Shown here in pieces: positions 9,403-11,284 of a DNA stretch of 36,356 nucleotides. Below the pieces are notes generated by a model. The model searched no databases. It saw nothing but the letters and a program-made list of their open reading frames with translations, and was not told where the DNA came from. A program made the translations under genes and the position numbers. Source of the stretch: Candidatus Roizmanbacteria bacterium RIFCSPLOWO2_02_FULL_40_13 (GTDB lineage Bacteria > Patescibacteriota > Microgenomatia > UBA1406 > GWC2-37-13); assembly GCA_001789965.1 (NCBI GenBank), contig MGBA01000023.1:1-36356 (forward strand). Reading direction: 5' to 3'. Each line of letters opens with the position of its first letter. The stretch's first letter is position 1.

Positions 9403-10461
9403 ATGGCTAATTTGAGTGTGGGAATTGTGGGACTTCCGAATGTTGGGAAATCTACATTGTTTAACGCTCTTCTTAAGAAACAGGTTGCACTTGAGGCAAA
9501 CTATCCGTTTGCGACGATTGAACCAAACGTCGGAGTTATTGAAGTACCTGATGCACGGCTTCCGGTCCTCGCAGAGATTGTAAAAACCCAGAAAATCGTA
9601 CCGGCGATCGTTGAGTTCTATGATATTGCAGGACTGGTAAAAGGCGCTTCAAAAGGAGAAGGCCTCGGCAATAAATTCCTCTCTCATATCCGTGAGGTTG
9701 CGGCGATAATTCATGTTGTCCGGCTTTTTGAGGATAAAAATGTATCACATATTTCCGACCAGATTAATCCTGCGCAAGACCTGCAGATTATTGAAGAGGA
9801 ACTTATGTTTGCGGATCTGGGGACCTTAGACAAGCAAAAAGAACCTCGCAACAATGCCTCCAAAGAAGAAACTGCCATGTATCAGCTGGTCCAAAGAGTT
9901 AAGACTAGACTCAACGAAGGTGTTCCCGTCCGCAATCAAGGACTGTCATCTGAGGATTTAGTGATGATCAGACAACTCAATCTTTTGACCATAAAACCTG
10001 TTATCTATTGCGTAAACTGCTCGCTTGAACAGATTGAGAACGCGGAGGAAACAGAACGACAGGTCCGCGTCATTCTGGGGAGTTTAAACGACACCAGAAT
10101 CGATTCTGGACAAGCCAGAATGACTGAAAATTTCATGCTTTTTAATCCTCTTGTGGAAACGACCTTAGATGTCATGATCAAGAAGGCATATGAAACCCTA
10201 AATCTTATTTCATTTCTCACCGGAGGCGAAAAAGAAGTACGGGCTTGGACTATCACAAAAGGCACTCTCGCTCCCCAAGCTGCAGGAGTTATTCATACTG
10301 ATTTTGAGAAGAAATTTATAAAAGCAGACATCGTTACCTACGAAGACTTCAAACAAGCTCCGGGTTGGTTGAAAGCGCGAGAGTCAGGACTGGTGCAGAT
10401 AGTTGGAAAAGATTATGAAATGAGAGAAGGCGATATCGTCGAATTCAAAATAGGTGCGTAA
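9403..10461 (+). CDS. ychF: Obg-like ribosome-binding ATPase/GTPase YchF
   Basis: 352 residues, close to the usual 363. P-loop GLPNVGKST at 10-18, switch region YPFATIEPNVG, DIAGLVKGAS, and a C-terminal TGS domain starting near EVRAWTITKGTLAPQAAGVIHTDFEKKF. YchF binds the ribosome and hydrolyses ATP in preference to GTP. The segment usually reading like CAAVEADIAELDDEER before the final helix is missing. In its place residues about 222-241 (ILGSLNDTRIDSGQARMT) are encoded by a palindromic repeat (10069-10124) that is shared with the GIY-YIG element. KPxxY to LNL is about 9 residues shorter than in E. coli by my manual count. The 3' end is duplicated just downstream. Probably still functional, since the frame and all nucleotide-binding motifs are intact. 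Confidence 0.95.
   Translation: MANLSVGIVGLPNVGKSTLFNALLKKQVALEANYPFATIEPNVGVIEVPDARLPVLAEIVKTQKIVPAIVEFYDIAGLVKGASKGEGLGNKFLSHIREVAAIIHVVRLFEDKNVSHISDQINPAQDLQIIEEELMFADLGTLDKQKEPRNNASKEETAMYQLVQRVKTRLNEGVPVRNQGLSSEDLVMIRQLNLLTIKPVIYCVNCSLEQIENAEETERQVRVILGSLNDTRIDSGQARMTENFMLFNPLVETTLDVMIKKAYETLNLISFLTGGEKEVRAWTITKGTLAPQAAGVIHTDFEKKFIKADIVTYEDFKQAPGWLKARESGLVQIVGKDYEMREGDIVEFKIGA
10069..10124. repeat. ORF-less palindromic element inside ychF
   Basis: Ends are GTCATTCTGG (10069-10078) and CCAGAATGAC (10115-10124), a perfect 10-bp inverted pair. Inside are two adjacent hairpins: 10071-10100, and 10103-10121 (ATTCTGG, loop, CCAGAAT). The left part 10069-10101 matches 21130-21162 at 30/33, and the right part 10102-10126 matches 21443-21467 at 25/25. 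Those two blocks frame the GIY-YIG gene, so this looks like the same unit without the gene, read through in frame. Confidence 0.8.
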
Positions 10462-10533
10462 GAAGGCGACCTGCCCGCAATGCTAGCGCAAGCGTTGCAG
10501 GGGGGCATAGTTGAATTCAAGATCGGCTCCTAA
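10462..10533 (+). pseudogene. Duplicated ychF 3' end with an in-frame palindrome
   Basis: Directly after the ychF stop, in the same frame, 24 codons read EGD-LPAMLAQALQGG-IVEFKIGS-stop, against EGD-IVEFKIGA-stop for the real end. The 27 nt at 10507-10533 match 10435-10461; apart from the last sense codon all differences are silent third positions. The 12 extra codons are a 36-nt palindrome. This looks like the tail of a second, divergent ychF allele left beside the present gene. Confidence 0.7.
10470..10505. repeat. 36-bp palindrome in the duplicated ychF tail
   Basis: Arms 10470-10487 and 10488-10505 pair at about 15 of 18 positions counting G-U pairs (inner part GCAATGC with GCGTTGC). Its length is a multiple of three and it keeps the frame. 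It could also act as a weak terminator for ychF, though it is followed by G and not T residues. Confidence 0.6.
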
Positions 10534-11284
10534 GCCGCAAGTATTCGATGTAGATTCTCCAGAAGCGGATTGAGGACATGAACGCAAATACAAACCCCTG
10601 CCATCCATCTAAAAATCCCTTATGTCTTCCGTAAGCAGAAAAAAACCATCCGATTGGTTTGAAAAAAATATACGATAAAAAATCAGGTTTTTCTTTATTT
10701 TCTTTAAGAAGCTTCGCATCCAGTGTCGTATACCGTTTCCACCGCTTGAGATATCGGTCAAAGGAAGGATCCGCATAATGAAGAAGGTCGTTTTTTAAAT
10801 ATCCTGTTGCTCCGTCAACCTCCACATTTTCATGAACTGATTTGCAGGGAAAATGAGCTACTCCTTTCTTGTATAGACGAACGGTATAGTCCGGATATAC
10901 TCCTCCTTTGGTAAGAAACCTGCCTAAAAAATAGTTTTTACGTGGTATCCAGTACGCGACCGTTTTTCTGTCTCCTCCTCCGCTTATGACATCTAGTATT
11001 TCCCCTTTCAACTCCGGCGTCACTTCTTCATCTGCATCAAGTTGAAGGATCCATTCACCCGTTGCTTTTGAAATCGCCCGTTGCTTGTTGATATGAAACA
11101 TCGGCGGATTGTTTTCCACGAATACTTTTACCTTATCACCGTATGATTTTGCCTTTTCGACAGTCCGGTCGGTAGAAGATCCGTCAACGACAATCACCTC
11201 GTCCACAAAGTCATAGGAAGAATCAAGAGGATAGTGAATGAAACTTTCCTCGTTGTAAGTAGCAATACACAATGAAAGTTTCAT
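10517..11284 (-). CDS. Family 2 glycosyltransferase
   Basis: 255 residues. A GT-A fold is shown by the N-terminal LSLCIATYNEE, the nucleotide-sugar motif VDEVIVVDGSSTDRT near 27-41 and the DxD-type metal site LQLDADEE near 80-87, followed by a C-terminal half with FLGRFLTKGGVYPDYTVRLY and SVHENVEVDG. This is the pattern of the LPS-core/WaaE-like branch of GT2, which adds sugars to a glycolipid or glycan at the cytoplasmic membrane face. The acceptor is unknown. Its last few codons (LRSRS) overlap, antisense, the duplicated ychF tail, so this 3' end may have been reshaped by that event. TGCTAAATT lies 6 nt before the ATG (leaderless). Confidence 0.88.
   Translation of the reverse strand: MKLSLCIATYNEESFIHYPLDSSYDFVDEVIVVDGSSTDRTVEKAKSYGDKVKVFVENNPPMFHINKQRAISKATGEWILQLDADEEVTPELKGEILDVISGGGDRKTVAYWIPRKNYFLGRFLTKGGVYPDYTVRLYKKGVAHFPCKSVHENVEVDGATGYLKNDLLHYADPSFDRYLKRWKRYTTLDAKLLKENKEKPDFLSYIFFKPIGWFFSAYGRHKGFLDGWQGFVFAFMSSIRFWRIYIEYLRLRSRS

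Follow-up and report, generated by a model that had tools for sequence, protein, structure and literature searches.

Why should an intact, single-copy gene be followed directly by a second copy of its own end, and why should that copy be split by a palindrome? The question arises in the window analyzed here, the whole 36,356-nt stretch of Candidatus Roizmanbacteria DNA, where ychF (9403..10461, + strand) encodes a YchF/OLA1-type GTPase of 352 aa with the Pfam domains YchF-GTPase_C and MMR_HSR1. The 3' end of the gene (10426..10461, + strand) reads GAA GGC GAT ATC GTC GAA TTC AAA ATA GGT GCG TAA, and positions 10462-10533, immediately 3' of the stop codon, read GAA GGC GA[CCTGCCCGCAATGCTAGCGCAAGCGTTGCAGGGGGG]C ATA GTT GAA TTC AAG ATC GGC TCC TAA. 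Without its 36-nt insert (10470-10505), the second copy specifies EGDIVEFKIGS*, and the live gene ends EGDIVEFKIGA*; the two tails differ in 7 of 11 codons, six of them silently and one by a change of Ala to Ser. The downstream copy is laid out as GAAGGCGA-[36-nt palindrome]-CATAGTTGAATTCAAGATCGGCTCCTAA, all on the + strand, with its first 8 nt (GAAGGCGA) at 10462..10469, the palindrome in frame as LPAMLAQALQGG at 10470..10505, and the remainder (..IVEFKIGS*) at 10506..10533. The sequence agrees with the original prediction that the last 11 codons recur in frame after the stop, with mostly silent changes and a 36-nt palindrome inside.

The tail repeat has a score of 50, compared to a 99.5th percentile of 33-39 in controls in which tails were paired with the downstream DNA of other ORFs. 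In a first set of 523 ORFs, only four had a clearly repeated downstream tail, ychF among them, and three of the four lie at this palindrome, hereafter PAL. A repeat search over 9900-10900 did not pick up the ychF duplication because the PAL insert interrupts the repeat, and an Rfam search of 10000-10700 gave no match at E<=1. The new stop codon and the old tail copy are separated by 0 nt, with no ORF between the two ends. A second, unrelated palindrome (GTCATTCTGG..CCAGAATCGATTCTGG..CCAGAATGAC) lies within the live gene at 10069..10124 (+ strand), in a length-variable loop of YchF. It has a predicted hairpin (z -4.4) and two further copies in this genome, three in all, and represents another dispersed family. 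As a description, the earlier claim that one gene has been targeted by two different palindromes is correct, each coming from a dispersed family. Other hairpins have struck ychF again in two relatives: in G062 (L076, 2541-2711) a second copy of the tail adjoins a different hairpin, and in G037 (L064, 1299-1609) the head of the gene is doubled, the two copies being separated by a hairpin element of ~67 nt.

Which of the two ends is the resident one? A glycosyltransferase gene convergent with ychF lies at 10517..11284 (- strand), and a homologue, likewise convergent, adjoins ychF in most of the relatives that have yielded one. In five of these relatives the stop codons of the two genes overlap by exactly 17 nt; elsewhere the overlap is 4 or 11 nt, or the genes lie apart. 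Here, the stop codon of the PAL-bearing copy overlaps that of the glycosyltransferase gene by exactly 17 nt, while the first ychF stop lies 55 nt off (a gap of +55 nt versus the ancestral -17). Because it is the PAL-bearing copy that has kept the 17-nt overlap, this copy is the resident, original end, and the end in use is the newcomer. The core of the original prediction, that the downstream copy derives from a second ychF allele whose tail stayed behind after recombination had replaced a damaged end, stands; what changes is its direction, now sharpened, since the palindrome-bearing tail belongs to the resident gene and the current end came from elsewhere. Three observations count against such a graft, however. 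GC3 is 0.42 in the new tail and 0.37 in the gene body, and because composition does not stand out, it is divergence that marks the new end as foreign. No donor allele was found for the new tail, and the genus is represented by one genome, with no sister showing ychF before the event.

PAL itself is widespread. DNA searches recovered four copies in this genome, the three besides the ychF copy with E values of 3e-10 to 7e-6. PAL was found in 11 of 72 genomes of the family, one of them with about 16 copies, and class-wide in 53 of 372 genomes (45 of 279 genera), and the reversed pattern, searched as a control, had no match across the 372 class genomes. The consensus, CCTGCCCGCAATGCTACGCATAGCGTTGCAGGCGGG, is predicted to fold at -23.5 kcal/mol (z -5.2). 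Among the matches listed, the named genomes with PAL belong to Roizman-, Davies-, Woese-, Nomura- and Moranbacteria, and these matches also include Verrucomicrobiota (Kiritimatiellae, Lentisphaerae and others). The presence of a near-identical 36-nt palindrome in Patescibacteria and Verrucomicrobiota (L312-L421) is hard to account for without inter-phylum transfer. IMG/VR holds only four contigs containing PAL, and hence carriage by phages is not indicated. In the papers searched, neither the PAL DNA string nor the peptide string occurs.

By eye, no target site duplication, as would be expected at each insertion of a MITE, was seen at the PAL insertions in tRNA-Gln, GAPDH, ychF and acs, for which there were no empty sites in close relatives to compare. 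The idea that PAL generally targets hairpin loops was rejected, as complementarity between flanks is barely above that of shuffled pairs (6 of 245 at a score of at least 9, versus 0.7% expected). Nesting occurs in single cases (L034, L043), and at L034 (genome G001) one PAL sits in the center of another. In genome G002, PAL forms the center of a larger composite repeat that is present nine times (L011, L022, L028, L032, L036, L038, L041, L044).

Many PAL copies are part of coding sequence. Among 202 copies in AT-rich loci, 53 sit in ORFs whose frame continues for 60 codons or more to either side. One of the six phases (PARNATHSVAGG) is used by 46 of the 53, and a phase containing a stop codon by none. 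In this behavior PAL matches the protein-coding palindromes known as Rickettsia palindromic elements (RPE). It is in frame within the seemingly intact conserved genes GAPDH (L037), a XerC/D-like gene (L266) and rplL (L295). The phase seen in the ychF tail, LPAMLAQALQGG, is hydrophobic and is shared by just 2 of the 53 long ORFs that carry PAL.

The ychF locus is not the only one of its kind. The acs gene of this genome likewise has its tail repeated downstream, again with PAL inside the repeat; in this case the old end is frameshifted and PAL puts a stop codon in frame. With acs counted alongside ychF, displaced protein ends hold two of the genome's four PAL copies. Tails with the same anatomy are found in other genomes (L024; L268; prfA at L203, with a larger composite; L286/L416), and the mirror image is seen at gene heads, in alaS (L217) and an HD-domain gene (L291); gene names at these loci were assigned by eye, the L286 gene resembling a beta-propeller protein. 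The strongest displaced-end case is L286, whose structure recurs in a separately assembled sister species (Woesebacteria Gw_Eff_bin_546, L416). In the graft, which is 63 nt long, GC3 is 0.24/0.19 (L286/L416), compared to 0.57-0.72 in the gene body and 0.85/0.55 in the old tail, and this graft is foreign by composition. Three relatives that lack PAL (G410, G411 and G412) end like the displaced L286 tail and a fourth (G356) ends like the graft, so that only the short end has been replaced in L286. In another genome, G253, the rplL tail (L231) and the rplK head (L202) are duplicated and displaced, and a palindromic sequence other than PAL is present.

Transfer RNA genes show a related pattern. 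PAL-carrying 5' fragments of tRNAs lie beside intact tRNAs at L012, L042, L040, L263-L265, L212 and others. At three of these (L040 and L042 in G002, L012 in G006), the intact tRNA, flanked by inverted repeats, is enclosed by a second, broken copy of its own sequence, which also carries PAL. Small GIY-YIG ORFs of about 78-100 aa occur in 67 of 72 family genomes, with 14 matches in the genome studied here. In a survey of 100 family loci (L003, L004, L014, L018, L081-L167), 73 tRNAs lay within 300 nt of such ORFs, all on the same strand and 0 on the opposite one; 31 tRNAs start right after the ORF stop codon (-20..+10 nt), and the other flank often holds a displaced tRNA fragment. These ORFs resemble homing-like elements that are free-standing, occupy tRNA D-loops and leave the tRNA restored. 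One contig end (L089, G008 C2:1-4400) has at least 12 tandem copies of one GIY-YIG ORF at 357-nt spacing. A GIY-YIG ORF, PAL and a displaced tRNA fragment are adjacent in L003, L004, L014, L018, L199, L257 and L281, and at GIY-YIG loci tRNA fragments are displaced both with and without PAL. Such elements displace tRNA fragments elsewhere in this genome, too. As the direct cause at ychF, a GIY-YIG homing element was rejected, there being no ORF between the two ends. Among the papers searched, none combines GIY-YIG, tRNA genes and the Candidate Phyla Radiation.

Is the coincidence of PAL and displaced ends more than anecdotal? We compared ORF ends across loci chosen for PAL, ychF or GIY-YIG genes; in this non-random sample, displaced tails, curated by eye to take out spurious and tRNA cases, occurred at 5 of the 119 ORF ends close to PAL and at 3 of the 1660 that lack it (p 6e-5). 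The larger, uncurated set of repeated tails, with scores of at least 43, gives 7/119 near PAL versus 13/1660 elsewhere (p 2e-4). High-scoring 'duplications' at L340, L423, L272 and L235 were discarded as spurious, these loci being GC-rich or of low complexity. PAL is statistically associated with displaced gene ends. Moreover, its position is regular. In 19 hand-read cases, the distance from PAL to the junction, measured by eye, is 7-30 nt (median 9), short and rather constant, and lies on the side of the gene interior. PAL is outside its favored phase in 5 of 7 displaced protein ends versus 7 of 53 intact genes (p 0.002). One caveat is that this bias would be equally expected had PAL landed in fragments that were already dead, which counts against an order of events with PAL first.

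We consider it probable that the resident ychF originally ended with 10462-10533, that PAL interrupted this end, and that it has been out of use since the live gene gained the end of a diverged allele. PAL would have inserted into the live tail in a poorly tolerated phase. To judge from the spacing, the hairpin, or a nuclease acting there, may then have caused a break a few nucleotides away from PAL, toward the gene body. The gene-body end could have been repaired by one-sided homologous copying of a foreign allele up to its stop codon. An end-to-end join between the copied end and the broken old tail would follow, on the model of homology-facilitated illegitimate recombination. Selection would have kept the restored gene, and the PAL-bearing resident end remains as a scar. 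The same process may have acted at acs and, in related genomes, at other gene ends and at tRNA 5' fragments. Both the order of events and the involvement of a nuclease are what we infer. Two observations are not accounted for by this scheme. One is the short, rather constant spacing between PAL and the junction; the other is that, in the simple tail cases, the graft stops 0-3 nt from its own stop codon, which random copying does not predict. A graft that ends at the stop codon fits a whole moving unit better, and therefore a homing-like rival stays alive.

In that rival, PAL and a gene-specific replacement end would form one homing unit, perhaps once accompanied by a GIY-YIG type endonuclease ORF that was later lost. 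Such a compact unit would finish at the stop codon as the grafts do, its layout would be that of the mobile-ORF gene hybrids of fungal mitochondria (PMC3630166), and it has a counterpart in the seven loci where GIY-YIG ORFs adjoin PAL and a displaced tRNA fragment. Yet no endonuclease ORF is found at ychF, acs or any other protein-gene case, PAL stands alone at many other sites, in frame in intact genes, and tRNA fragments are displaced at GIY-YIG loci without PAL; we regard this explanation as unlikely. Somewhat better placed, although still improbable in our judgment, is the reverse order of events, in which ordinary recombination with a diverged allele displaced the ychF end and PAL later landed harmlessly in the useless tail. 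That displaced ends without PAL exist (ychF in G062, rplL in G253), that GIY-YIG loci displace tRNA fragments whether or not PAL is there, and that the phases in displaced ends look near random all fit this order. It has to explain, however, why displaced protein ends, so scarce as targets (about 3 of 1660 PAL-free ORF ends), hold half of the PAL copies in this genome (2/4), and why PAL lies about 7-14 nt from the junction in most cases rather than anywhere in the fragment.

An in-place tandem duplication of the ychF tail followed by divergence would account for the direct repetition of the gene end and for the presence of GAAGGCGA in both copies, but nearly all-silent changes in an unused copy need a long separation with both evolving as coding sequence, the new tail of L286/L416 is foreign in composition, and either tail type is found in separate lineages of relatives, all of which makes it very improbable. 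We give still less weight to an assembly artefact, i.e. the joining of two strain variants' ends in a metagenome assembly. The genome is indeed a 25-contig draft and the sole one of its genus, but the same anatomy recurs at acs and in several other genomes, one case is common to two sister species assembled separately, and the old tail retains its conserved overlap with the glycosyltransferase gene. It is just as hard to believe that the second tail is functional, either through readthrough of the first stop into the extended YchF raised in the original prediction or through a hairpin that acts as a terminator between the convergent genes. The frame is open through PAL to the second stop and the hairpin is stable; against this, the hydrophobic PAL phase used here is a rarity (2/53), the old acs end is frameshifted with a stop in PAL, and no T run follows the hairpin.

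If the resident ychF end was indeed lost to PAL and replaced, the implications reach beyond this locus. A single palindrome family is found in two bacterial phyla, and its insertions show a statistical link with replaced ends of essential genes, a tangible record of cross-lineage repair in bacteria that depend on hosts and have few genes. The pattern also yields a testable proposal: a hairpin, then a break, then one-sided repair may be how conserved genes acquire very short foreign segments. Its recurrence points to a general route for patching damaged genes in such bacteria. It further calls for caution with the annotation of these genomes, where a gene end or a tRNA fragment can be a scar. 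More speculatively, and on balance doubtfully, mobile palindromes might drive gene mosaicism in Patescibacteria: near-end insertions would be break hot spots mended by short grafts from other species, essential genes (ychF, prfA, alaS, rplL, acs, tRNAs) would be patched repeatedly with the old end as a dated scar, and palindrome and GIY-YIG nuclease might possibly constitute one homing system.

How does this compare with known systems? When phages or islands integrate at the 3' ends of genes, the end is restored with silent changes and the old end is left on the distal side; at ychF, by contrast, nothing is integrated between the two ends, with 0 nt from the new stop to the old copy. PAL shares with REP/BIME elements, which go with RAYT (Y1_Tnp) transposases, the form of dispersed GC-rich hairpins, but many PAL copies are in frame inside genes. 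A RAYT-driven REP is not supported: Y1_Tnp has 0 matches in the genome studied here (G000) and in G134, both PAL carriers, and is present in most others. Homology-facilitated illegitimate recombination, in which one end is joined by homology and the other illegitimately, is known from transformation and conjugation (PMC3240628); that work concerns laboratory integration of linear DNA, whereas here the process would operate at natural palindromes and yield very short grafts. In fungal mitochondria, mobile ORFs graft a foreign gene end and leave the native end downstream, as in Allomyces atp6 and Glomus atp6/atp9/cox2/nad3, with an endonuclease ORF, one of them GIY-YIG, between the grafted and native ends (PMC3630166). 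The ychF locus is similar in that the graft is upstream and the native end, identified by the 17-nt overlap, is displaced downstream; it differs in that no endonuclease ORF separates the ends (0 nt), there being just a palindrome in the native end, and in that the hosts are bacteria, not mitochondria.

The nearest parallel is with RPE, summarized in PMC10969869 (citing Ogata 2000, 2002) as short dispersed palindromes that occupy unrelated protein genes in frame and whose presence the product tolerates. PAL is likewise a dispersed stable stem-loop, often in frame within protein genes that are unrelated. Its length of 36 nt does not fit the figure of about 150 bp in that summary of RPE. PAL also differs in occurring in Patescibacteria and Verrucomicrobiota and in its link to displaced gene ends. 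To our knowledge, gene-end displacement has not been described for RPE, and coding palindromes of this sort have been treated chiefly as a peculiarity of Rickettsia. The ychF locus itself is a scar, and its interest lies in the recurrent pattern to which it belongs. That pattern is one of an RPE-like coding palindrome tied to the displacement and cross-lineage replacement of gene ends.
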